From positions 1 through 47,961 of IMG/VR virus record IMGVR_UViG_3300042292_000587: a stretch of DNA of 47,961 nucleotides; one strand, given 5' to 3'. The number at the start of each line of letters is the position of its first letter. Positions within the stretch are counted from its first letter, which is position 1. The notes under the pieces were generated by a model. It was not told the origin of the DNA and ran no database searches. It was given only the letters and a program-made list of their open reading frames with translations. Source of the stretch: a virus. The position numbers and the translations under genes are program-made. Shown here piece after piece: positions 2,948 to 47,961 of the stretch.

Positions 2948-3535
2948 TTACTCCTTTGCTTCTGTTTCGCGTGCCTGCGCCGCTCGTTTGCGGCCGGCCA
3001 GGATGCGTTCGACGACGGAAAGCTCGCCCGACACTTCGACCTTGTCGGTGCTGTAGCCGAGGATTTTGGCGAGAGCGTCGAGGGCCGCCTTCTTGTCGTG
3101 GAACTTGACTTTGTACTTTTTGACCTCGCGCGCGTCTTCGCCTTTGCCGTCTTTGTACTCGTCGACCTGGAACTCCGAAAGCGCCGCGCGCTGCTCGTCG
3201 TTCATGCCGGCCAAGTCGAGGACAGCCGAGCCGTCGTCGTTGATCTCCAGGAGGTCGCCGAAGTTGGCGAAGGCGATCTTGGCGTATTCCTGGATGATGC
3301 GCTCGCGGGTCACGTCCGTCTTGCGCACCATGCTTTGGCGGCGCCGGTCGATTTCTTTAAGGACGTCGGGATGGTTGAAGAGGCGGTGCTGGTAGCCCTC
3401 GATGCTCTTTTCCGAGAACCCGCAGGTACGCATGGCTTGGCGCTTGTTGAAGCCGTTCGAGAAATACTCGTCGACGAGCTTCAGATAGCGCTCGCTCACT
3501 TCCCGCATCGGTTTGTTCTTTTTACCCTGACGCAC
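2948..3535 (-). CDS. terS: Terminase small subunit
   Basis: This is a 195-residue DNA-recognition subunit of the packaging terminase. The N-terminal region has a helix-turn-helix-like stretch (NKRQAMRTCGFSEKSIEGY) followed by NHPDVLKEIDRRR, matching phage terminase small subunits. The C-terminal part is charged and helical. GTG at 3535 is preferred because GGAGG lies 5 nt upstream. The longer reading from GTG 3685 gives a proline-rich, non-homologous leader and would begin upstream of the promoter at 3638-3666. It is the first gene of the late operon. Confidence 0.88.
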   Translation of the reverse strand: MRQGKKNKPMREVSERYLKLVDEYFSNGFNKRQAMRTCGFSEKSIEGYQHRLFNHPDVLKEIDRRRQSMVRKTDVTRERIIQEYAKIAFANFGDLLEINDDGSAVLDLAGMNDEQRAALSEFQVDEYKDGKGEDAREVKKYKVKFHDKKAALDALAKILGYSTDKVEVSGELSVVERILAGRKRAAQARETEAKE

Positions 3536-3637
3536 CTTGGCCTCCTCGAAACTGGTGGGGGGAAACTTGTAATGCTCCTCCCCCCAGGGAGCGGGGCCGC
3601 GTCCAGGAGGGAAGGGGCTCCGACGCGGCCAGGGTTC

Positions 3638-3666
3638 AGAATAGGGCCACGGCTTGGGGCGGTCAA
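3638..3666 (-). promoter_or_regulatory. Predicted sigma70-like late promoter
   Basis: Read leftward, TTGACC (3666-3661) and TATTCT (3643-3638) are separated by exactly 17 bp. The predicted start near 3631 gives a leader of about 95 nt before the TerS GTG. A dispersed palindrome begins 12 bp upstream of the -35 box, a position compatible with activation or with control of a divergent promoter. Confidence 0.7.
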
Positions 3667-3677
3667 GCGCAAATTTT

Positions 3678-3693
3678 GGGATCACGTAATACC
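3678..3693. promoter_or_regulatory. Dispersed palindrome site 1
   Basis: GGGATCACGTAATACC fits the 12-site consensus GGNATNAYRTNATNCC. It lies just upstream of the predicted late promoter and in the divergent early/late gap. Confidence 0.8.
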
Positions 3694-5155: not shown

Positions 5156-5599
5156 ATGTCGCACGAGAATTATGCGCTTTCGGATGTCGGCCAAAAGCCA
5201 TACGTCATTTTCGCCGTTGTGCCCGGTATCGACGTCGAGCAATTCATGCGCTCCCGTGGCGTGCCGTTCAAGACGGTTCGGGGCTCGTACCGCATGCGCG
5301 ACAGCGGCGAAATTGTGCAGGAAACGTCCTACATCGTTTCGGCAGAAGACTGGGACAAATGGCTCGAAGGTACCGCAGTTATCACGGGCCAAGAAAGCAT
5401 TTTGGTACTCGGGCCAAAAGCTTCGCGCGACGCGCATCGCCCGGCAATCCTGCACTATCTGGACGGCGAAAAATTGCCCGTGTTCCTGGGCTATTTCGTC
5501 GACTGCGAAGAACACGTCGCAAAGGCGCAACCGGGCTGGACAGAAGATGACGGCGTCTTCTACGCATGCTTTCACGACGTAGAAGACGCCCAAGAATAG
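5156..5599 (+). CDS. Hypothetical protein (147 aa)
   Basis: The chosen ATG at 5156 has a GGAG 7-10 nt upstream; the in-frame extension to 4988 overlaps the preceding gene and is rejected. The product is acidic at its C-terminus (ending DVEDAQE) and carries no membrane segment. The N-terminal part (YVIFAVVPGIDVEQF) looks like a small alpha/beta domain. No family is recognised. A strong hairpin follows 18 nt after the stop. Confidence 0.78.
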   Translation: MSHENYALSDVGQKPYVIFAVVPGIDVEQFMRSRGVPFKTVRGSYRMRDSGEIVQETSYIVSAEDWDKWLEGTAVITGQESILVLGPKASRDAHRPAILHYLDGEKLPVFLGYFVDCEEHVAKAQPGWTEDDGVFYACFHDVEDAQE

Positions 5600-6884: not shown

Positions 6885-6921
6885 AAAAAGGGGTCTCTAC
6901 AGAGTAGAGAACCCCCCTTTT
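6885..6921 (+). terminator. Predicted intrinsic terminator
   Basis: A long imperfect stem pairs AAAAGGGG and TCTCTAC on the left with GTAGAGA and CCCCTTTT on the right, and it ends in TTTT. It would stop rightward transcription from the first early block before the repeat array. Confidence 0.7.
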
Positions 6922-6925
6922 GTGG

Positions 6926-7105
6926 TCGTGATACTTTTGAGGGAGCCTTGAACAAATTCCTTATCACGACGGAAAAGATCGTGATACATTTTGCATCTAT
7001 TGCAGTAAACATCGTATCACGACAAGGGTCGGTCGTGATGCGTCGTGATGCCGTAGGTTCGCGTTCCTGATCACGATCTTTTCAGTCGTGATACTATCGT
7101 GATAC
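6926..7105. repeat. Array of nine TCGTGATAC repeats with about 53-bp periodicity
   Basis: Plus-strand copies start at 6926, 6979, 7033, 7043, 7086 and 7097. Minus-strand copies cover 6961-6969, 7014-7022 and 7068-7076. The plus set at 6926/6979/7033/7086 and the minus set at 6961/7014/7068 each repeat every 53-54 bp, close to five helical turns. The extra copies at 7043 and 7097 are one turn after their neighbours. A 23-bp inverted-pair element at 6963-6985 recurs in reverse orientation at 7070-7092 with 22 of 23 bases identical. The array could be iterons of an origin or cooperative operators. Confidence 0.9.
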
Positions 7106-7163: not shown

Positions 7164-7192
7164 TTGACAAGCGCCCTGGTATTACATAATAC
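7164..7192 (+). promoter_or_regulatory. Predicted early promoter with palindrome over the -10 box
   Basis: Consensus TTGACA (7164-7169), a 17-bp spacer and TAATAC (7187-7192) form the best promoter in the early region. The -10 box is the right half of palindrome site 3 (7178-7193), so a protein bound there should block RNA polymerase. The first gene downstream starts at 7224. Confidence 0.8.
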
Positions 7193-7193
7193 C
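7178..7193. promoter_or_regulatory. Dispersed palindrome site 3 (operator over -10)
   Basis: GGTATTACATAATACC, identical to site 10, overlaps the -10 box of the promoter at 7164-7192. This is the clearest evidence that the palindrome is an operator. Confidence 0.85.
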
Positions 7194-7223
7194 AAGGTTT
7201 CAAGCAAGAGGAGGGAAGACAAA

Positions 7224-11693: not shown

Positions 11694-13646
11694 CTATGCT
11701 TTTGCCCAGCGCCACTTGGACTTTTCGGCGTCGTACATGATACTCGCTTTGGTGCCCTTGGTCTCGCGCAAGCGTATCAGGTAGTTGTTCTGGAGCGTGC
11801 GGCTGTCGACGTCCACCTCGTTGCGCATGGCGACGGCTTCGGCTAGGGCTTTGGTAGACCAGTCCTTGAACTTGTTGGCTTCGAGCGTCTTCGCGACGGC
11901 GTTGTCCAGCACGATGATGCTCGACGCATCGAGCGCCTGCCGCTTGCGCTTCGACGGCGCCTCCTCGGCCTTCTCCTGTGCCGGCGCCTCGTCGGCCTTG
12001 GCGCACGGGAACACGGCGAGCGAGCCCTCGTCGTCGGTTTCGCCCTGGGGGCGCAGCTCCAGGCGCATCGGCTTCTCCCACTCGGGCGCGTCCTTCTGTT
12101 TCGTGTTGAACAGGCTCACGAGCTTCTCTTTGCCCTTGCGCTGCACGCCGAAGATCGCATCCGGTGCGCCCTGGAACTCCATCGAGCCTTTGGCGCGCGT
12201 GTCGTCGCCCTGCCCCGAGTGGTGGATCGCCAGCAGCGAGGCGCCCAGCTCGGCCTGGAGGCGCTGCGTCATGGCCGTGAACTTCGATGCATGTTCCTGC
12301 GCGTTCTCATTGAGCCCTTGCATGGCGCGGGCGACCGTGTCCACGACGACGAGCTTGTATCCTTCCGGGTGCATCTCCAAAGCACCGTCGATGAACCCCT
12401 CGATCGCCTCGGCCACGAGCGGCACGGGGTCGGCCAGGATGAAGCGGTCGGCTTTGCGCCCGCCCACGTGGGCACCCTCCCATGCCTTCACGCGCTTCAC
12501 GAAAGACGCGCGGCCCTCGCCCAGGATGTAGAGGACGGGGCCAGGGTCTTCGACGCGGAAGGCGTGCGTCTGCGGGAACGATCCGCCTGTCGCCACGGTG
12601 AGCGCCCAGTCTAGCGCGATGAAGGATTTGAAGGTGCCGGGCGGCCCGAACAGGATCGCGAACGCTTCCTGCGGCAGGACGCCAGGGATGAGCCAGCGTG
12701 CTGGCGGCACGTGGTCGAGCGCCTCGCGGTCGACAAAGCGAAACTTGCCCGCCGTCAGCTCGCGTCCGCTCGGCAAGTCGTCGCGCAGGACCGGGCGAAA
12801 CAGTGCCTTGATCTTGGCCTCTTTGTACGCGGCCGTGATGTTGCCGGGCGGGCTGGTGTTGTAGGCGTAGCCGTTGTCGATCTTGGTTTCGAAGTGGTCG
12901 ATTTCGTCGGCACCCCAGGGCGGCTGGCAGCGAGGGTTCCAGTGTTCCCACATGAGGTCGCGCGCGAGCGCCTGGGAGATGCCGTAGGATTTGAGGTGCG
13001 CCGCTGTGGCGTAGGCTATGGCGTCGCCGCCTTGCCCCTGGACGGCGATCTTGGCGTCTTCGCGAAGCCATTTGGTGGCCGCCTCGACATTGGCCGGGAG
13101 GTCGGGCTCGATCAACCAACTGTCGCGGTCCTCGTGCTTCTCGCGCGCCACGTTGAAGGCGCGCAGCATGTCGTCGGTTCGGTAGGTGGCGCGGCCCTCG
13201 GCTTCCCAACTATAGACGCCGTCGTCGGTACGGCTCGGGGCCAGCAGCACGTAGCCGTTGAGCCCGCGAATGTCCGTCTTGTGCGCGACCTTGCTGACGG
13301 AGTTGGCGACGCGGTCTTCCTCTCCGATTGCGTAGAAAAGATGGATACCACCTCGCGGTGTGCGTTGCCGCATCTCGGTGTTCGGCAGTTGCAGGTCGCG
13401 TTTGACCTGGGGCATGTCGGAGCCTGGGTCGAAATCCACGGCGAGCAAACCCGCCCCGTGCAGATCGAGGCCGATGTTCGCTTTCGGAAACCGAGCCCAC
13501 CACTTCTCGATCTTGGCCGGATCGGTCGTCGCATCGAGTACGCCGTTTTTTACCAGGGCGCCGATCGGTTCTTTCTTGCTGTCGCACGGGAAGATAGGAA
13601 GGCCGCGCTTGGCATAGGCCAGCGCATGTTCAAGCATTGTCGCCAT
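11694..13646 (-). CDS. Primase-polymerase / RepA-like helicase fusion
   Basis: This 650-residue replication protein begins with a Prim-Pol-type primase domain (about residues 1-190). AKRGLPIFPC opens it, with LLAVDFDPG carrying acidic metal-binding residues and TPRGGIHLFY further on. A RecA-fold helicase domain follows, with Walker A GPPGTFKS near residue 333 and Walker B-like VVVDTVARA near 430. A later SLLAIHHSGQG matches the RepA/AAA_25 group. The C-terminal about 100 residues are probably a helical DNA-binding segment. It would unwind DNA and make primers at the phage fork. ATG 13646 has AAGGGG upstream. The gene is read opposite to all neighbouring replication genes. Confidence 0.9.
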   Translation of the reverse strand: MATMLEHALAYAKRGLPIFPCDSKKEPIGALVKNGVLDATTDPAKIEKWWARFPKANIGLDLHGAGLLAVDFDPGSDMPQVKRDLQLPNTEMRQRTPRGGIHLFYAIGEEDRVANSVSKVAHKTDIRGLNGYVLLAPSRTDDGVYSWEAEGRATYRTDDMLRAFNVAREKHEDRDSWLIEPDLPANVEAATKWLREDAKIAVQGQGGDAIAYATAAHLKSYGISQALARDLMWEHWNPRCQPPWGADEIDHFETKIDNGYAYNTSPPGNITAAYKEAKIKALFRPVLRDDLPSGRELTAGKFRFVDREALDHVPPARWLIPGVLPQEAFAILFGPPGTFKSFIALDWALTVATGGSFPQTHAFRVEDPGPVLYILGEGRASFVKRVKAWEGAHVGGRKADRFILADPVPLVAEAIEGFIDGALEMHPEGYKLVVVDTVARAMQGLNENAQEHASKFTAMTQRLQAELGASLLAIHHSGQGDDTRAKGSMEFQGAPDAIFGVQRKGKEKLVSLFNTKQKDAPEWEKPMRLELRPQGETDDEGSLAVFPCAKADEAPAQEKAEEAPSKRKRQALDASSIIVLDNAVAKTLEANKFKDWSTKALAEAVAMRNEVDVDSRTLQNNYLIRLRETKGTKASIMYDAEKSKWRWAKA

Positions 13647-14249: not shown

Positions 14250-15074
14250 ATGACCAAGACCAAAGCCAGCAAGGCGTCGAAGCCCGCGCCCAAGGCGTCG
14301 AAGCCCGCGCCCAAGGCGTCGAAGGCGACCGCCGTCGTCATTGTCGACAAGGTTGCCGAGAAGGCCGCCGCCATCACCGAGGCCAACAAGCGCCTCGATC
14401 CCCTCGCGAAGACGATCAACGTGCGCCTCGAAAAGGCGGCGAAGCTCGAAGGCGACGCGGACGATCACCGTCTTGCGGCGGCGCTCGAAATGGCACGCGC
14501 GGCCCAGCTCTGCGAAGGTGCCGGCATCAAGTTCAAGGACTGGGCGATCGAACATATCAAGGGCCAGTCCTACGAAAACGTGCGCAAGCTCCTGGCTGTC
14601 GGCAAGGCCGACGAACCGGCCAAGGCCCTTGCCGACCTGCGCGCGGGCGCCAAGAAGGCCCAGGCCAAGCACCGCGAGAAGGTGAAGGCGAAGGTCCAGG
14701 CGGCGAACGTGCCGAAGCTCGAAGCGCCCAAGCCGATCGACGTCGTCGCGGGGCTGAAGCCCGAGGACCAGATCGCCCTGGTCAAGAAGGTCTCGAAGGA
14801 CCTGGGCATGGCCGTCGTGTCCGACAGCGACGCCAAGGCGCTCGACCAGTTCCGCAAGGACCCGCCGAAGAAGGCCGAGGCGGCACCCGCCGCCAAGTCT
14901 CCGTTCGGCTACGACGCGGTCGTCGCCGGCATCGGCGATCTCAAACAGTCCGAGAAGCTGAAGCTTCTGCGCTGGCTGGGCGAGGTCCTCGGCTACAACG
15001 TGACGGCCAAGACCGAGGCCGAGAAGAAAGATTTCGACGCGATCCCCGACTTCCTCAAGGTCGACAAGAAGTAA
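14250..15074 (+). CDS. Alanine/lysine-rich putative DNA-associated protein (274 aa)
   Basis: ATG 14250 follows GGAAGGGAGAC. The N-terminal about 27 residues are a Lys/Ala/Pro tail built of 7-residue repeats (KASKPAP) from a 21-bp tandem repeat at 14271-14333, resembling histone-like tails. Residues about 75-115 (GIKFKDWAIEHIKGQSYENV) resemble the core of phage proteins that carry KfrA/DUF3102-like helices. The remainder is helical with charged linkers. A DNA-binding role in replication is plausible from composition and position but unproven. Confidence 0.75.
   Translation: MTKTKASKASKPAPKASKPAPKASKATAVVIVDKVAEKAAAITEANKRLDPLAKTINVRLEKAAKLEGDADDHRLAAALEMARAAQLCEGAGIKFKDWAIEHIKGQSYENVRKLLAVGKADEPAKALADLRAGAKKAQAKHREKVKAKVQAANVPKLEAPKPIDVVAGLKPEDQIALVKKVSKDLGMAVVSDSDAKALDQFRKDPPKKAEAAPAAKSPFGYDAVVAGIGDLKQSEKLKLLRWLGEVLGYNVTAKTEAEKKDFDAIPDFLKVDKK
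14271..14333 (+). repeat. 21-bp tandem repeat
   Basis: AAGGCGTCGAAG recurs at 14271, 14292 and 14313. The first two 21-bp units are identical and the third is partial. Confidence 0.9.
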
Positions 15075-20004: not shown

Positions 20005-20667
20005 ATGGCACGCGAGACGAAGAAGAAAGAACCGGCCGAGATCATCCTGTTGCCGGAGGGTCGCCTCATCAACAACGCTCTGTTCGAGCGCGACCAGTTC
20101 GACGACAAGTCGGCCCTGGCCTACAAAGCCGAGATCGTGATCTCGAAGGACGACAAGGAGTTCGACGACGTCATCGACAAGCTCTACGCGGCGGCGGAAG
20201 CTGCCGGTCTGCCGGGCAACGAGAAGTTCACGGTCGATGGCGGCGACGTTGCCTGCGGCATCATCGACGGCGACGAGTACGCGAAGAAGCGCGAGCGCGC
20301 GGGCAAGCCTGCCGATGCGTACAAGGGCAACTGGGTCATTCGTGCGGCGTCCAAGTTCAACAAGGAGGGCGTCGAAGGCCCCGGCGGTATGGCCGTCCAC
20401 GACGAAGACGCCAAGCCTGTCACGATCCAGAACCAGGGCGTCGTCTACAACGGTTGCTACGGCTTCCTCGCCGTGACGATCGGCACCTACGTCGACGACG
20501 GCAAAAACGGCACGGGTCTCCCGTCCACCAAGTTCTACCTCGCGGGCTTCCAGAAGTCGCGCGACGGGGAACGCTTCGCGGCTGCCCGCGATATGTCGTC
20601 GGTGTTCAAGCCGCTCGGCAAGGCAGCGGCGGCCGGTGGCGGCGAGCGTCGCAGCCGTCGCGGCTAA
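20005..20667 (+). CDS. DUF2815-family ssDNA-binding protein
   Basis: This 220-residue protein matches the phage DUF2815 family, an OB-fold ssDNA-binding group usually encoded next to DUF2800, as here. Visible features are RLINNALFERDQFDDK near the start, an ERAGKPADAYKGNWVIRA segment and a Gly/Arg-rich C-terminus (GGGERRSRRG). The C-terminus is basic, unlike the acidic tail of bacterial SSB. It would coat ssDNA at the replication fork. ATG 20005 has AAGGAGAG upstream. Confidence 0.88.
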   Translation: MARETKKKEPAEIILLPEGRLINNALFERDQFDDKSALAYKAEIVISKDDKEFDDVIDKLYAAAEAAGLPGNEKFTVDGGDVACGIIDGDEYAKKRERAGKPADAYKGNWVIRAASKFNKEGVEGPGGMAVHDEDAKPVTIQNQGVVYNGCYGFLAVTIGTYVDDGKNGTGLPSTKFYLAGFQKSRDGERFAAARDMSSVFKPLGKAAAAGGGERRSRRG

Positions 20668-21685: not shown

Positions 21686-21912
21686 CCGACCCCAGCGAAG
21701 TCGTCGTGAGCGTCGAAGACACGGACGCGCTGTTCAACTTCATTCAGAAGAACGGCGTCGATCACTTTTCGCTTGCTCAAGCACTGCGAATTGCTATCGC
21801 AAAACGAGTGCCCGGCAAACGTCCGTACTTTAAAGGAAGCACGGAAGGCCACTGCTGCGCGGACGCGCACAACGAACTCCGCGAGAAAATTCTGAAAGGC
21901 ACAAGCGCTTGA
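21682..21912 (+). CDS. Small hypothetical protein (76 aa)
   Basis: ATG 21682 overlaps the HD gene stop (ATGA) and its own stop overlaps the polymerase TTG start. The product (VVVSVEDTDALFNFI...) is alpha/beta with a CC pair in GHCCADAHNEL. No family is recognised; coupling suggests a link to polymerase expression. Confidence 0.7.
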   Translation: MTDPSEVVVSVEDTDALFNFIQKNGVDHFSLAQALRIAIAKRVPGKRPYFKGSTEGHCCADAHNELREKILKGTSA

Positions 21913-23879
21913 TCCACCTCGACTTCGAAACCAAGAGCTACGCGGACCTGAAGAAGGTCGGCGCCTGGGCGTACTCGGAACACGAGACGACCGAGGTGAT
22001 CGTGCTGTGCTGGGCGGTCGACGACAGCGCCGTCGATTACTGGCGCCCCGACCACGGGCGCGAGATGCCCGAGGGATTACGTGATGCCATCGAAGAGGGC
22101 CATCCGGTCGAGGCGCACAATTGCTCGTTCGAAGTCTCGATTTGGAAGAACGTCATGGTGAAGCGCTACGGCTGGCCCGACATCGCGGTCGAGCAATGGC
22201 GCGACACCATGGCTGTCGCACACTACTACGCCCTGCCGGGCGGCCTCGACAAGCTGGCGCGCGTGCTGGGCTTGCCGGGGAAGAACCCCGAAGGTGCGCG
22301 GCTTATCACGAAGTATTCGAAGCTGCACTTGAAGACGGCGAAGACCGTGATCCCGCCCGAGGACATGAAGAAGTGGATTGCGTACTGCACGCAGGACGTC
22401 GAGGAACAGCGCACCATCTCGAACTACCTTGGCGATCTACCGGACGACGAGCTGGCCCTGTTCCACCTAGACCTCAAAATCGAACTGCGCGGGCTCAAGC
22501 TCGACCACGAAGGGATCGCGGCGGCAAGCGAAGTCGTCGACCGTCGGGCCGAGGACCTGGAAGCCGAGTTCCGCAAGCTGACCGGCGTCGGCCCCAACCA
22601 GCGCGAGAAAGTGTTGGCGTGGTTCGAGGCGCAGGGCTTCCCGCTGGAGAACCTGCAAGCCGAGTACCTGGAGGAGCTGGTCGAGGAGGGCAACGTGCCG
22701 GCCGGGGCTGTCCGTCGAGCGCTGTCGATCCGCCTATCCATCTCCAAGGCCAGCACGAAGAAGCTCGACAAGATGGTGATGCAGTCGGGCAAAGATTGCG
22801 TCGCCCGTTTCCAATGCAAATACCACGGCGCGCAGACGGGGCGCTGGACGGGCACAGGCTTCCAACCGCTCAACATGAACCGGGGCAGCGAGGACAGCGT
22901 GCCCGAGGACTTGGTGGCGAACATCATGCGCCGCGATCCTCGCTGGCTGGATGCGCTCTACGGCGACGCTATGCAGGCAGTATCCTGGGCAACGCGCCAC
23001 TGGATCACGGCGAAGGAAGGCAACCGTATCCTGGCCGGGGACTTCGTGTCGATCGAGGCCGTCGTTTTGGCGTGCTTGGCGGGCGAAGACTGGAAGGTCA
23101 AGGCGTTCCGCGACGGCGTCAAAATCTACGAGGCCATGGCCGACAAAATCTACAATCTACCTCCGGGTACAGTTACGAAAAAAACACATCCTCTGGAGAG
23201 GCAGGACGGCAAAACAGGGGAACTCGCTTTCGGCTACCAGGGGGCGCTCAACGCATGGCTAAACTTCGACAGCTCGGGCCGCCACACCGACGAACGCATC
23301 ATCGAAATCTGCAAGGCGTGGCGCAAGGAACACCCGGAGATCGTGAAGTTCTGGTACGCCACGGAGCGCGCCGCGATCAAGGCTGTCGAGACCGGCCGCG
23401 AAGTCGAGTGCCAAGCTCTGTCGTTCAAGGTGATCGACGAATGGCTCTCGATGCGTCTGCCCGACGGCAAGCGTATCTGGTACTGGGCGCCCGAGCTGCG
23501 CGTCAAAATGCCGAAGTGGCACGACCCGGCCACCAAGGAAGACTGCGCTGCCGGCACGTGCCGCTGCGAGCCGCAGCCGCAACTCACCTACATGGCGCAG
23601 AAGTTCGGGCAGTGGAAGCGTGTCAGCACCTACGGCGGCAAGGTCGTCGAGAACGCGACCCAGGCCACGGCTCGGCAGATACTCACGCCGTCGATGCTGC
23701 GCGTCGAGAAGTACGGCTACCCGATCGTGCTGTCGGTCTACGACGAAGTCGTCTGCGACACGCCGCTGGGCCACGGCTCGATGAAGGAGTTCGGAGAAAT
23801 CCTCGGCGAGCGCGAGGGGTTCTTCCGCGACTGGCCGATCGGGGTCGACTGCTGGGAAGGTCCACGCTACAAGAAGTAG
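21909..23879 (+). CDS. Family A DNA polymerase with 3'-5' exonuclease
   Basis: This 656-residue replicative polymerase has an N-terminal proofreading domain. Exo I is LDFET (residues 3-7), the Exo II region is AHNCSFE (near 75) and Exo III is YCTQD (near 159). The polymerase domain has motif A GDFVSIEA (near 377), motif B RQDGKTGELAFGYQG (near 430-444) and motif C VYDEVV (near 611), with Tyr in place of the usual His. No 5'-3' exonuclease domain is present. TTG 21909 overlaps the preceding TGA; no ATG fits the conserved N-terminus. Palindrome site 8 lies near codon 57. Confidence 0.95.
   Translation: MIHLDFETKSYADLKKVGAWAYSEHETTEVIVLCWAVDDSAVDYWRPDHGREMPEGLRDAIEEGHPVEAHNCSFEVSIWKNVMVKRYGWPDIAVEQWRDTMAVAHYYALPGGLDKLARVLGLPGKNPEGARLITKYSKLHLKTAKTVIPPEDMKKWIAYCTQDVEEQRTISNYLGDLPDDELALFHLDLKIELRGLKLDHEGIAAASEVVDRRAEDLEAEFRKLTGVGPNQREKVLAWFEAQGFPLENLQAEYLEELVEEGNVPAGAVRRALSIRLSISKASTKKLDKMVMQSGKDCVARFQCKYHGAQTGRWTGTGFQPLNMNRGSEDSVPEDLVANIMRRDPRWLDALYGDAMQAVSWATRHWITAKEGNRILAGDFVSIEAVVLACLAGEDWKVKAFRDGVKIYEAMADKIYNLPPGTVTKKTHPLERQDGKTGELAFGYQGALNAWLNFDSSGRHTDERIIEICKAWRKEHPEIVKFWYATERAAIKAVETGREVECQALSFKVIDEWLSMRLPDGKRIWYWAPELRVKMPKWHDPATKEDCAAGTCRCEPQPQLTYMAQKFGQWKRVSTYGGKVVENATQATARQILTPSMLRVEKYGYPIVLSVYDEVVCDTPLGHGSMKEFGEILGEREGFFRDWPIGVDCWEGPRYKK
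22073..22088. promoter_or_regulatory. Dispersed palindrome site 8, intragenic in the polymerase
   Basis: GGGATTACGTGATGCC fits the consensus and lies 164 bp into the polymerase gene. Confidence 0.7.
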
Positions 23880-33500: not shown

Positions 33501-35730
33501 GCGGGCGACCGTCGATCGTCTTGGGGAACATGGGCAACAGCGTCGCTTCGACGTCGGCGCGGATCGTCTTCGGGTCCGATGCCTCGTAGCCGGTGAACAT
33601 GCCCTCGCCGGCAAACTGGAGAACGTCGATCGCTTTCTGGCGGTCGATGCGCTCGGCGTCGATCGACGTCAGCAGCGCGTAGACAGGCTCGTTGTCGACC
33701 GACTGCTGGGCGACCTCGCGCTCTTGCTCGTAAAGCTTCTTGTACTCGCCAGACAGGCGCTCGCGCTCCTGACGCAGGCGCAAGTCTTCGAGGCGATTGC
33801 GGGCGACTTCACGCGCGCGGGCGACCTTCGCAAGGTACGCCTCGTACTGCGGCTGCGTCAGCCCGGTGTCGCGGGCCGACTTGAACATCTCCTGGAGCCC
33901 GATCATCTGGTCGATGCCGATCGTCTGCTCGGCGGCCACGATCAGGTTCCCGTCGGCGTCAGCCTTCAGGCCCTTGGGCAGCGCCTCACCGCTTGTCAGA
34001 TCGAGGATGACCTTCTTCGGCATCTTGCGGATTTCGACATCGCTGAACCCGGCTTCGCGCAGGATCGAAATGGCGTCGTCGGTGATCTCGGTCGGCGCTT
34101 TGGGAGCTTCGGCGGCGTTCGGGTCGGCAGCCTGTTCCTCTTCGGCCGCAAGCTTCGCCTGCTGCGACAGGTCGGTGCCCGCGTACTCTTTGGCTTCCGC
34201 CGCCGTGAGACCTTCGCGATCCAGGCGGATATGATCGGCCAGGGCTGCGAACGCCTCGGGCTGCACGTGAACGGCGGCGTGCGCCGTGGGCGACACGACA
34301 ATGTCTTCGTTGCCGGCAGCGACTTCGGCCGCCAGGGCTTCGCGCGTGATGCCGACCTTCTCCAGCAATGCGTCGCCCACCTCTGGGTCGAGCTTGTCGA
34401 TAGCTTCCGCGAGCTTGTCGGCGGGGATCGAGACCTCGGGCAGCGAGCCCGACAGAGCCTCGATGGCGGCCTCGGGGTCGTTCTTTGTGATCGGCGCCTC
34501 TTGCACCTTGGCACTCATCTCCTGGAGCGAGGCGAGGCCATTCTCGGCGTTCGCGATATCCTGGCGATCCTTGCGGTAGCGCATGACAGCACCCGGCGTG
34601 CTGAGTACGGTGGCCGCCTGGAAAGCTTTGAAGCCCGCCTCGAAGATGCGCTCGCGGACCTGGGCTGCCGACGCGCCTTCCAAGCCTTCGAGCGACTTCC
34701 CGACTTCTTCGGCCGTGATCTGAATGATCTCTTGGACGGCTTCGGTTCCGCTCTGCACGCCGACGTTCTTCGCGTACTCCGTCAGCGCCTTGCCGGCCAC
34801 CTGTGTCACGCCGAGGCGCTTGACCATGTCCTGCACGAACGCCGCACGCATGCCCGACGTAAATTGCCCGAGGCCCACGCGATCGGCCGCAACTTCGACA
34901 GCGCCGATCAGGCCGCCCGCGACGACCGCGAGCGAACGCGCATAGGTGTCGCTGACGCCAGCTTCGCGGAGGTCCACGTAGGATTGGCCCATGGCGACCG
35001 AGGTGGTCTCCGCGAGGTAGCCCAGGCCAGCGCCGGCCACCACGACGCCGCCAGCGACCGCGAGGGTGGGTGCTGCGACCACACCTGCGGCGACTGCGCC
35101 GACACCAAGTGCCGCACCGCCGACAACACTTTTGCTGGTGGCCGAGGAGAAGAGTTGCCCGACCTGTTCAGACGCCGAGCCGAACCAGCCGCCGATCCCT
35201 CCGTCGTTGTCGGCAAGCGACTTGAGGCGCGCGTCGATAGCGGCCATGTCGGATTTGAACTGCTCGGAGCCGGGGGACACGAGGAGATTGAAGCCGGCGC
35301 GGCCCTGGTCCTGCACGGCGTTTCCGCGCTGGAAGGCGCGGGCTTGGCGCTCGACAAACGAAAGCTGCTCGACGCTGTCGTGAGCGATCTTGGCGTTGCT
35401 GGCGACGGCCATCCATGCGGCGGTGTTGGGAGCATCCTGGAGGGCCGTAGTCACGCGGCGCTCTGTCGCAACGGCTTTGAACGTTTCGCGATCGGAGGCT
35501 ACGACTTCCTCGGGGGCGCCGACTTCCGTAGCGAGCTTGCGGTCGGAGGCGGCCTGCGACGTGCTGGTGCCCGACAGGACGCGGGCGTTGGTGGCAGCTC
35601 GCTGGCGGGGTTCGGCGGCTACGCTTTCAAGGGCGCGAAGGTATTTGTCGCCACCGCTCGGCACGCCCCCAGGCGTCACGTTTGCAGCGTCGATGCCCTC
35701 AAGCGCTTTGTCGTAAATCGTACCGGCCAT
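30508..35730 (-). CDS. Very large internal virion / DNA-ejection protein (1740 aa)
   Basis: The largest gene in the window lies where podoviruses encode their biggest internal virion protein (compare T7 gp16). The N-terminal 150 residues are helical. A long Gly/Ala/Val membrane-like segment (about residues 205-250, VVGGAALGVGAVAAGVVAAP) could insert into the host envelope. The rest is long helical, with acidic linkers and a C-terminal globular region. No lysozyme, transglycosylase or protease motif is seen. It probably forms part of the ejected conduit for DNA entry. ATG 35730 follows AGGGGCGAAGC. Confidence 0.85.
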   Translation of the reverse strand: MAGTIYDKALEGIDAANVTPGGVPSGGDKYLRALESVAAEPRQRAATNARVLSGTSTSQAASDRKLATEVGAPEEVVASDRETFKAVATERRVTTALQDAPNTAAWMAVASNAKIAHDSVEQLSFVERQARAFQRGNAVQDQGRAGFNLLVSPGSEQFKSDMAAIDARLKSLADNDGGIGGWFGSASEQVGQLFSSATSKSVVGGAALGVGAVAAGVVAAPTLAVAGGVVVAGAGLGYLAETTSVAMGQSYVDLREAGVSDTYARSLAVVAGGLIGAVEVAADRVGLGQFTSGMRAAFVQDMVKRLGVTQVAGKALTEYAKNVGVQSGTEAVQEIIQITAEEVGKSLEGLEGASAAQVRERIFEAGFKAFQAATVLSTPGAVMRYRKDRQDIANAENGLASLQEMSAKVQEAPITKNDPEAAIEALSGSLPEVSIPADKLAEAIDKLDPEVGDALLEKVGITREALAAEVAAGNEDIVVSPTAHAAVHVQPEAFAALADHIRLDREGLTAAEAKEYAGTDLSQQAKLAAEEEQAADPNAAEAPKAPTEITDDAISILREAGFSDVEIRKMPKKVILDLTSGEALPKGLKADADGNLIVAAEQTIGIDQMIGLQEMFKSARDTGLTQPQYEAYLAKVARAREVARNRLEDLRLRQERERLSGEYKKLYEQEREVAQQSVDNEPVYALLTSIDAERIDRQKAIDVLQFAGEGMFTGYEASDPKTIRADVEATLLPMFPKTIDGRPLFTPKGKETGLDPHILAARFGFDDALSMFQALQSAEDRTQRIQTLADRRMAEAYPDLMSSKRDVDLALEAIHTDQQGKLMMDDLNRMLIARKQGKLKHAFVKKAAQDALETKRVSEIKPATFFSAFKRKAAEAGRAVRKGDRDLATKKSFEKVVAFEMARASYKVRNEAVQDQKFVSKFLASDKGRAMADNSEAADYFDAAKWLIREYGFAEDVGQIKEDRAAEIVEQNFPKIVERLQQPRGSKAGLPVEPADMRLGDWREAAVVIRQLVGFGRDAASFAEADGVRQLSEVVADLEGVARAAQDVARTDETRNDANAPALKKAGALAANVIVPSNSLVEFTMRLMDNGKTAGKWFNATVRNVMSAEFAANRIREKFVQPHIEKLRDVLPQRPGPLGLQYDTTRSTTPGGVGVRLSVEQRIMLALNAASPDGMKRLIEGMKLGRSYKAGSWTEANIMAEINQLTPEQAEWVQGMLDIFKVHMWPLVEAQYRRETGKSPNKVQGQQLVLNNGAIIQGGYFPLLYDRSQISYNDEAFKLQDPLSSGVGGGSRAQYDAVFSGLIKARTNFVAPLALDLSRATLVLDAHIHYITHRQAIRDMSKLFRNPELAGLISDKAGPDRMEGLKAWMRDLAANGDAGRALQIQDGVNPIVEFARQGVLVSAMTYSVATFLAQPLGITSSVNQLSRTDTGKRQVGKGSLYFGRGLMDLLATGRKGMKWANDVSLVLRDRLSSVDAAIGELQRELENKATPRAKLAVAGFRALAYFQLYTVDYPTWFGAYRKAQEEGRTPQDAAVYADSILRTAQGSGALSAQSSFQRARDPWSRAVNGVMTYPTVYFNAMGEAVADLKRQKGVKGKLWTMGATLVLMTLIPSILDTLRGNAVPEDEDKADAFFWLRRIFGTQLQAFGVFGQIAGGLVQGYKPSGTLVASYAAETEKLISALYKIYEDEELTVETARKIVKPLFVAGRIPGGSQADRFLEALEKDSENPLDYVLGPPPPK

Positions 35731-47235: not shown

Positions 47236-47961
47236 TTACGCCTCCCCTTCCAAAGGATCGTACTCGTGTTCCGAAATCCCGCTGTTGCCGTGCCCCAAGC
47301 TTTCCTGGACGTCTGCGGGTGCAGCCTCGTGAGCGTAGGTGAGGGCCAGAGCGTCGGCAACGTCGGGGCTGCACCCGAGGCGCTTCTTCAGATCGTCCTT
47401 GCTCTCCAGGGTGATGCGGCCGAGTTTGTAGATGCCATACTCCCGCTGCGTGAGCTGCTCGTGCAGGGCGTTGCCCGTCGATCCAGCGCCTTGAGACGTC
47501 GGCAGGCACAGGCGCGTCTTGAGCGCTTCGCGAATTTTACCGTACAGCTCGTCGACCTTGTACCGATAACTGTTCTTGTCGATTGGGTTCGACCCGAACT
47601 GGATTTCGTGAACCGGGTAGCCGAGCGAGCGCAGGTGGTCGACAACGCCGCCTCCGTATCCGCCGCCACCGTCGATGTTGATCGCCCCGACCTTCAGCCC
47701 GAGCCCTCGGAAATAGCGCACCAGTTCGATGACCTTGCCTGCGATTTGGATCGTATCTGCCCCATTCATGCGCGTGATGGGCCAGGACCGGGCGTCCATG
47801 CCTTGCCGGGGATAGATGACGCTGTCGTCATCGCCAAAGCGCGCCACGTCCACGCCGATCGTTACGGTGTCTCGGTTGGTCTTGGGAAGCGCCCGACGCG
47901 ACGCTTCTTCTACCAGCTCGGTCGAGATGAACTGCGTCGACGCCTGCGAAGGGAACTGGCC
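47236..47961 (-). CDS. terL: Terminase large subunit, C-terminal (nuclease) part; continues at left end
   Basis: Codons 297-528 of the gene whose start is at 888. GVDVARFGDDDSVIY carries the first Asp of the RNase H-like nuclease, INIDGGGGYGGGVVDHL the second acidic residue region, and DVADALALTYAHEA the third Asp. The nuclease cuts concatemers during packaging. The stop at 47236 precedes the gp13-like gene. Bases 47932-47961 duplicate 1-30. Confidence 0.94.
   Translation of the reverse strand, partial: GQFPSQASTQFISTELVEEASRRALPKTNRDTVTIGVDVARFGDDDSVIYPRQGMDARSWPITRMNGADTIQIAGKVIELVRYFRGLGLKVGAINIDGGGGYGGGVVDHLRSLGYPVHEIQFGSNPIDKNSYRYKVDELYGKIREALKTRLCLPTSQGAGSTGNALHEQLTQREYGIYKLGRITLESKDDLKKRLGCSPDVADALALTYAHEAAPADVQESLGHGNSGISEHEYDPLEGEA
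47932..47961. repeat. Right copy of 30-bp terminal direct repeat
   Basis: Identical to bases 1-30; removing one copy restores the TerL frame. Confidence 0.95.

Follow-up and report, generated by a model that had tools for sequence, protein, structure and literature searches.

The SaPI Rep protein uses its C-terminal domain to read iterons directly downstream of its own gene, and SCCmec Cch2 acts alike (PMC7581432). The system proposed here would likewise consist of an initiator helicase with a putative C-terminal DNA-binding domain and short iterons directly downstream, but SaPI Rep and Cch2 are DUF927 or D5/primase C-terminal helicases, whereas the helicase considered here is of the RecA-like RepA type (AAA_25), is fused to a Prim-Pol and belongs to tailed phages. 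The ORF904 protein of the pRN1 replicon depends on a stem-loop immediately behind the Prim-Pol/helicase gene that encodes it, and a layout like that of pRN1 has been reported for several phages (PMC4234260). ORF904 resembles the phage protein in uniting Prim-Pol, helicase and winged helix (the latter probable in the phage) in one polypeptide, but it has an SF3 helicase and one long stem-loop as origin instead of iterons and a short hairpin. The motor of the phage enzyme is of the AAA_25/RSF1010 RepA type and not of the AAA+/SF3 type that characterises the self-loading replicons of SaPI and pRN1; the phage system would work like such a self-loading helicase replicon, but is not a member of that group. 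A C-terminal winged helix in primase/helicase fusions, including those with RepA-type motors, has been suggested to recognise origins (PMC5862659). These PrimQH-type AEPs also combine a primase, a RepA-type or other helicase and a C-terminal winged helix, but no origin was shown for them, whereas candidate cognate origins are presented here. Finally, the DNA-binding domain of RepA and the origin iterons vary together in the PLE satellites of Vibrio cholerae, while the other parts of RepA are conserved (PMC8263062); in difference to the phage enzyme, this is a RepA_N protein without a helicase, and it belongs to a phage satellite with three repeats of about 30 bp.

Few environmental tailed phages have a known origin, and searches of the open-access literature gave no account of iterons following AAA_25 helicase genes. 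The oriV of RSF1010 has iterons and hairpins, and RSF1010 RepA (PDB 1g8y, E = 2.9e-7) is the only solved structure matched in sequence by the core of the phage helicase. However, RSF1010 uses the separate proteins RepA, RepB' and RepC for helicase action, priming and iteron binding, whereas we propose one polypeptide for all three. Here, we analysed a repeat array in a virus record and conclude with a probability of about 0.78 that it is the replication origin of this phage, bound by the C-terminal domain of the helicase encoded at 11694-13646 on the minus strand.

Structure of the repeat array

The analysed stretch, called the window, is a virus record of 47,961 bp and consists of one linear contig. 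Both of its ends (positions 1 and 47961) appear to lie within one conserved gene, which suggests a circular map that was opened during assembly; the ORF at 47236-47853 is part of a longer protein in relatives. The nine ordered repeats of the original prediction are present within 180 bp and have the 7-bp core TCGTGAT in common (nine of nine copies), starting at 6926, 6979, 7033, 7043, 7086 and 7097 on the plus strand and at 6963, 7016 and 7070 on the minus strand. The full word TCGTGATAC occurs in only five copies, the remainder being TCGTGATAA, TCGTGATGC (twice) and TCGTGATCA. The features of the array are:

6926..6934, plus strand: iteron 1, TCGTGATAC
6961..6969, minus strand: iteron 2, TCGTGATAA
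6979..6987, plus strand: iteron 3, TCGTGATAC
7014..7022, minus strand: iteron 4, TCGTGATAC
7033..7041, plus strand: iteron 5, TCGTGATGC
7043..7051, plus strand: iteron 6, TCGTGATGC, one helical turn past iteron 5
7068..7076, minus strand: iteron 7, TCGTGATCA
7086..7094, plus strand: iteron 8, TCGTGATAC
7097..7105, plus strand: iteron 9, TCGTGATAC, one helical turn past iteron 8
6962..6985: inverted unit, first arm, at iterons 2 and 3, 96% complementary to 7070-7093
7070..7093: inverted unit, second arm, at iterons 7 and 8, pairing with 6962-6985

The predicted spacings were borne out, with plus copies following each other at 53, 54 and 53 bp, minus copies at 53 and 54 bp and the extra plus copies 10 and 11 bp further on. 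The inverted pair, described before as matching in 22 of 23 bases, is indeed nearly perfect, but measures 24 bp at 96% complementarity. That all copies lie on the same DNA face holds only in part: the plus copies drift by 0-3 bp in phase, but the minus copies are off by about half a turn. The gap is AT-richer as claimed (47% GC at the array vs. 62% in the genome), and in repeating a short word many times within AT-richer, non-coding DNA the array has a feature characteristic of iteron origins. While nine copies of one 7-mer occur within 200 bp here, the maximum in 100 first-order Markov genomes was 3-4.

The array gap is placed between two groups of plus-strand genes, with a hairpin on its left and a promoter-like box on its right:

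6886..6921: hairpin bordering the array on the terminase side, with a GGGG..CCCC stem as well as A- and T-tracts, DNA fold z = -4.0
7164..7192, plus strand: promoter-like box, TTGACA-17-TAATAC, for the operon of small genes that follows the array, seen in the sequence
7178..7193: palindrome GGTATTACATAATACC over the -10 box, a separate element and one of nine dispersed copies

Hairpins were also found at the same place in contigs L048, L059, L043 and L044 (z of -3.8 to -4.8), giving five phages including that of the window. The hairpin of the window is terminator-like on the minus strand and possibly doubles as a bidirectional terminator; a comparison with Rfam for structured RNA gave no matching family. 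The box at 7164..7192 is omitted by a consensus promoter scan, which requires a T at the last position. The 16-bp palindrome, with the consensus GGTATCACGTGATACC or GGGATCACGTGATCCC, recurs throughout the genome and mostly close to where genes meet, with copies starting at 3678, 3982, 7178, 13730, 16458, 19456, 27427, 30468 and 38756. Relatives contain 14-23 copies per whole genome, including the late genes (23 in G008), and these palindromes probably serve a regulator as operators or stoperator-like sites. As a source of the array they were rejected, since apart from the window only a few relatives (G002, G006) show the resemblance clearly.

A candidate initiator and its C-terminal domain

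The window encodes its own replication genes, comprising the Prim-Pol/AAA_25 helicase, an SNF2 helicase, a DUF2800 exonuclease, an Enc34-type SSB, PolA and RusA. The gene products relevant here are:

11694..13646, minus strand: Prim-Pol (PF09250) fused to RepA-type AAA_25 helicase (PF13481), 650 aa, proposed to act as initiator, helicase and primase
11697..11963, minus strand: C-terminal domain of this helicase, 89 aa (residues 562-650), probable winged helix and proposed iteron reader
20005-20667: SSB
21909-23879: PolA, phage DNA polymerase
2948-3685, minus strand: small terminase subunit

The stop codon of the helicase gene faces the array. Whereas the original prediction recognised no clear iteron-binding initiator in the window, we consider this Prim-Pol/RepA-type helicase a candidate. 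Its Prim-Pol and motor parts share about 45-65% identity between phages (less for the motor of G011), and the last 75-100 residues are the least conserved part with about 24% mean identity. The C-terminal domains of non-sister phage pairs are 12-50% identical, and those of pairs with the same or similar words reach 82% (window and G001) and 55% (G012 and G021). In a matrix test, similarity of the words did not correlate significantly with that of the C-terminal domains (r = 0.12, p = 0.16), with words being shared by close pairs only. Because of this result, we can only infer that the C-terminal domain reads the TCGTGAT iterons. An AlphaFold2 model of the domain (pLDDT 76.5) contains helices followed by a short two-strand hairpin, and the top Foldseek matches of this model were mostly winged-helix DNA-binding domains, all with E > 0.5 and none significant singly. 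Judged from the model, the domain is probably a winged helix.

Another protein, g274 (14250-15074), is a conserved lysine-rich protein encoded between the Prim-Pol and SNF2 helicase genes and present in 15 related contigs; it is duplicated near the small terminase in L052 and L059 (G021). As a binder of the array it was discarded, having no Pfam match and no DNA-binding domain recognised in the alignment.

Arrays in related phages

A DNA similarity search against phage records gave no match for the window. Relatives were gathered by searching IMG/VR with neighbouring proteins and the helicase, which revealed a phage family sharing terminase, capsid and replication genes with the window. A sister phage (contigs L007, L008 and L009) keeps the lattice as 53, 54, 10, 44 and 11 bp with a one-base shift after iteron 7, and is identical at 63 of 63 site positions vs. 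85 of 117 spacer positions. Nearly every family member covering the stretch from the small terminase to the Prim-Pol carries an array there, located in a GC minimum. The words differ by relative, namely TCGGGATC (L010), TTTGGGATA (L041), TTGCACGAT (L043), AAGTTGGTAAG (L048 and L049), AAGTTGGTAC (L059), GACTGTAAA (L050), TTAAGGCACAG (L044), TTGTTGGTCA (L046) and, weakly, TTGTACGCCAA (L042); the array of L053 is doubtful, with repeats on one strand only near the terminase. Of the periodicity expected in relatives, the 53-bp lattice is confined to this phage and its closest relatives, and the general features are phage-specific words, often on two strands, together with a hairpin.

In a wider scan, about 80 loci of RepA-type (AAA_25) helicase relatives were reduced to 64 non-redundant helicases and analysed for two-strand arrays of at least six copies starting between -60 and +300 bp from the helicase stop codon. 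Of the 32 two-strand arrays, 20 started in this interval, which accounts for 2.6% of the sequence (binomial test, P = 4.5e-24). An array at the stop was present for 20 of the 64 helicases, and about two thirds of the clusters were without one by the same definition. The words included CGGGACA, AACGGCA, ACCTACA, CAAATGG, GTGGTCA, ACGGAAT and others. Contig G013 shows the window's order of terminase, g203, g205, array and helicase, with the array touching the helicase stop and no gene in between; this array has convergent genes on its two sides, and in G009, too, the array follows the 3' end of its helicase gene. The cultured Rhizobium phage RHph_N65, whose host is R. phaseoli, carries 11+1 copies of GCGGAGAT in a 380-bp gap (about 34,930-35,300) that separates its helicase/primase gene from a convergent gene. 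This array is located at the helicase stop, and its distance from the large terminase is 8.5 kb. In the window, array and helicase stop are 4.6 kb apart, in the same gene order as in relatives. The ancestral layout was probably an array directly behind the helicase stop, with about 4.4 kb of small genes lying between them in this lineage. Prim-Pol relatives were also present in three MAG contigs from bacterial genomes; in one of these (L230), GGGTACAGTA repeats begin 54 bp past the stop codon, and the other two have no repeats there.

A second element, TTTNCTGCGGGTTT, was considered as a shared part of the arrays and rejected, being clear in 6 of 14 phages and absent from the window. A GCAGTTTTCTGCGGGTTTCCAG-like element was observed inside the arrays of L048, L050, L041, L042 and L059, which have different words, and in L230 (5920-6240), and is absent from the array of the window.

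GC skew

We determined the detrended cumulative GC skew of 12 genomes, closing linear contigs artificially; gene orientation is a partial confounder of this measure. In seven genomes with skews above the random 95% range, the minimum was 26, 175, 362, 377, 913, 1807 and 2863 bp from the array, and the proximity of minimum and array over all 12 genomes yielded a Fisher P of 4e-5. In G025, whose skew range of 345 is just above the random 95% level, the minimum is 13.4 kb and the maximum 1.4 kb from the array. The skew check suggested with the original prediction located minima near the arrays of seven relatives, but not in the window itself, where the skew is flat (range 225, within chance) with a minimum 21.8 kb from the array; the skew of the sister phage is flat too.

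Alternative explanations and proposed origin function

The original prediction had left open whether the array is an origin or a complex operator. In the latter case, a phage regulator would bind it cooperatively and control the operon starting near 7200, as suggested by the promoter-like sequence about 60 bp past the last iteron and by the resemblance of the array word to one half of the dispersed palindrome that overlaps the -10 box. Promoter control is hardly expected for the arrays of G013, G009 and RHph_N65 at the 3' ends of helicase genes (between convergent genes in G013 and RHph_N65), however, and in G008 and G021 the same palindrome is joined with unrelated array words. Because an operator explains neither the linkage to the primase-helicase gene nor the skew minima, both of which the arrays in relatives follow, we favour the origin and regard the operator as unlikely, although a secondary effect of the array on the promoter is possible. 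It is also quite improbable that the array is a packaging site, where the small terminase subunit would bind the repeats and the pac or cos cut would be made at or around the hairpin. Throughout the phage family of the window, the array is never more than a few kb from the gene for the small terminase, a palindrome adjoins the repeats, and the terminase also differs between phages with different words. However, the arrays of more distant phages follow the helicase gene, the alignment of the small terminase shows no single fast-changing DNA-reading domain, and the skew minima at the arrays point to replication; a terminase profile matched only 2 of 18 records of distant contigs and is uninformative. 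The array of RHph_N65 speaks against both alternatives: because of its position at the helicase stop next to a convergent gene and 8.5 kb from the terminase, packaging is unlikely and a promoter operator insufficient.

Plasmid centromeres contain clustered repeats with regular phasing, and the array may be likened to such a partition site bound by a ParB-like protein. This is very unlikely, however, since no ParA or ParB was named among roughly 20 window proteins scanned and the arrays are tied to the helicase gene. A neutral, functionless repeat expansion is hardly conceivable: although an old tandem duplication could have left the 53-bp spacing, the sites of the sister phage are completely kept in contrast to the spacers, and diverse phages repeatedly show an array at this place, each time with a new word.

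For the array as an origin, we infer a replication start there in this phage, loading of a helicase ring and a role of the hairpin. Several copies of the Prim-Pol/RepA-type helicase would bind the nine TCGTGAT iterons via their probable C-terminal winged helices and assemble into a helicase ring, or into two rings in view of the arrangement on both strands. This assembly may be aided by the hairpin next to the array and by the AT-rich spacers; the DNA would then be opened and primed, and PolA and SSB would take over after priming.

Tentatively, such arrays may represent a large, undescribed class of phage origins, in which each Prim-Pol/RepA-type initiator is paired with an iteron array of its own, whose word is read by a rapidly changing C-terminal domain. 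The origin words of related phages would be mutually incompatible, perhaps because parasites or rivals target origins or take them over. Because the array word changes between related phages, an arms race over specificity is suggested, as in satellite origins. The layout of an array behind the helicase stop provides candidate origins and words for many phages from sequence alone, including the cultured Rhizobium phage, and the prediction of an origin at the helicase stop is directly testable.

Further repeats were noted in some of the contigs. L052 contains a second array at 1129-1300 adjoining the small terminase (tandem copies of TTGGGATACGCAATTCCGACTTCAGGAGAG and palindromes), in addition to its main array at 5346-5595. 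Many matches to the three-site pattern in unrelated contigs were discarded as one unrelated TCGTGATTATTT repeat. An unrelated repeat of the form TCGTGATTATTTNTTATAAATA...AAAATCACGAC...GTCGTGAT is present in many different viral contigs (L012-L035).
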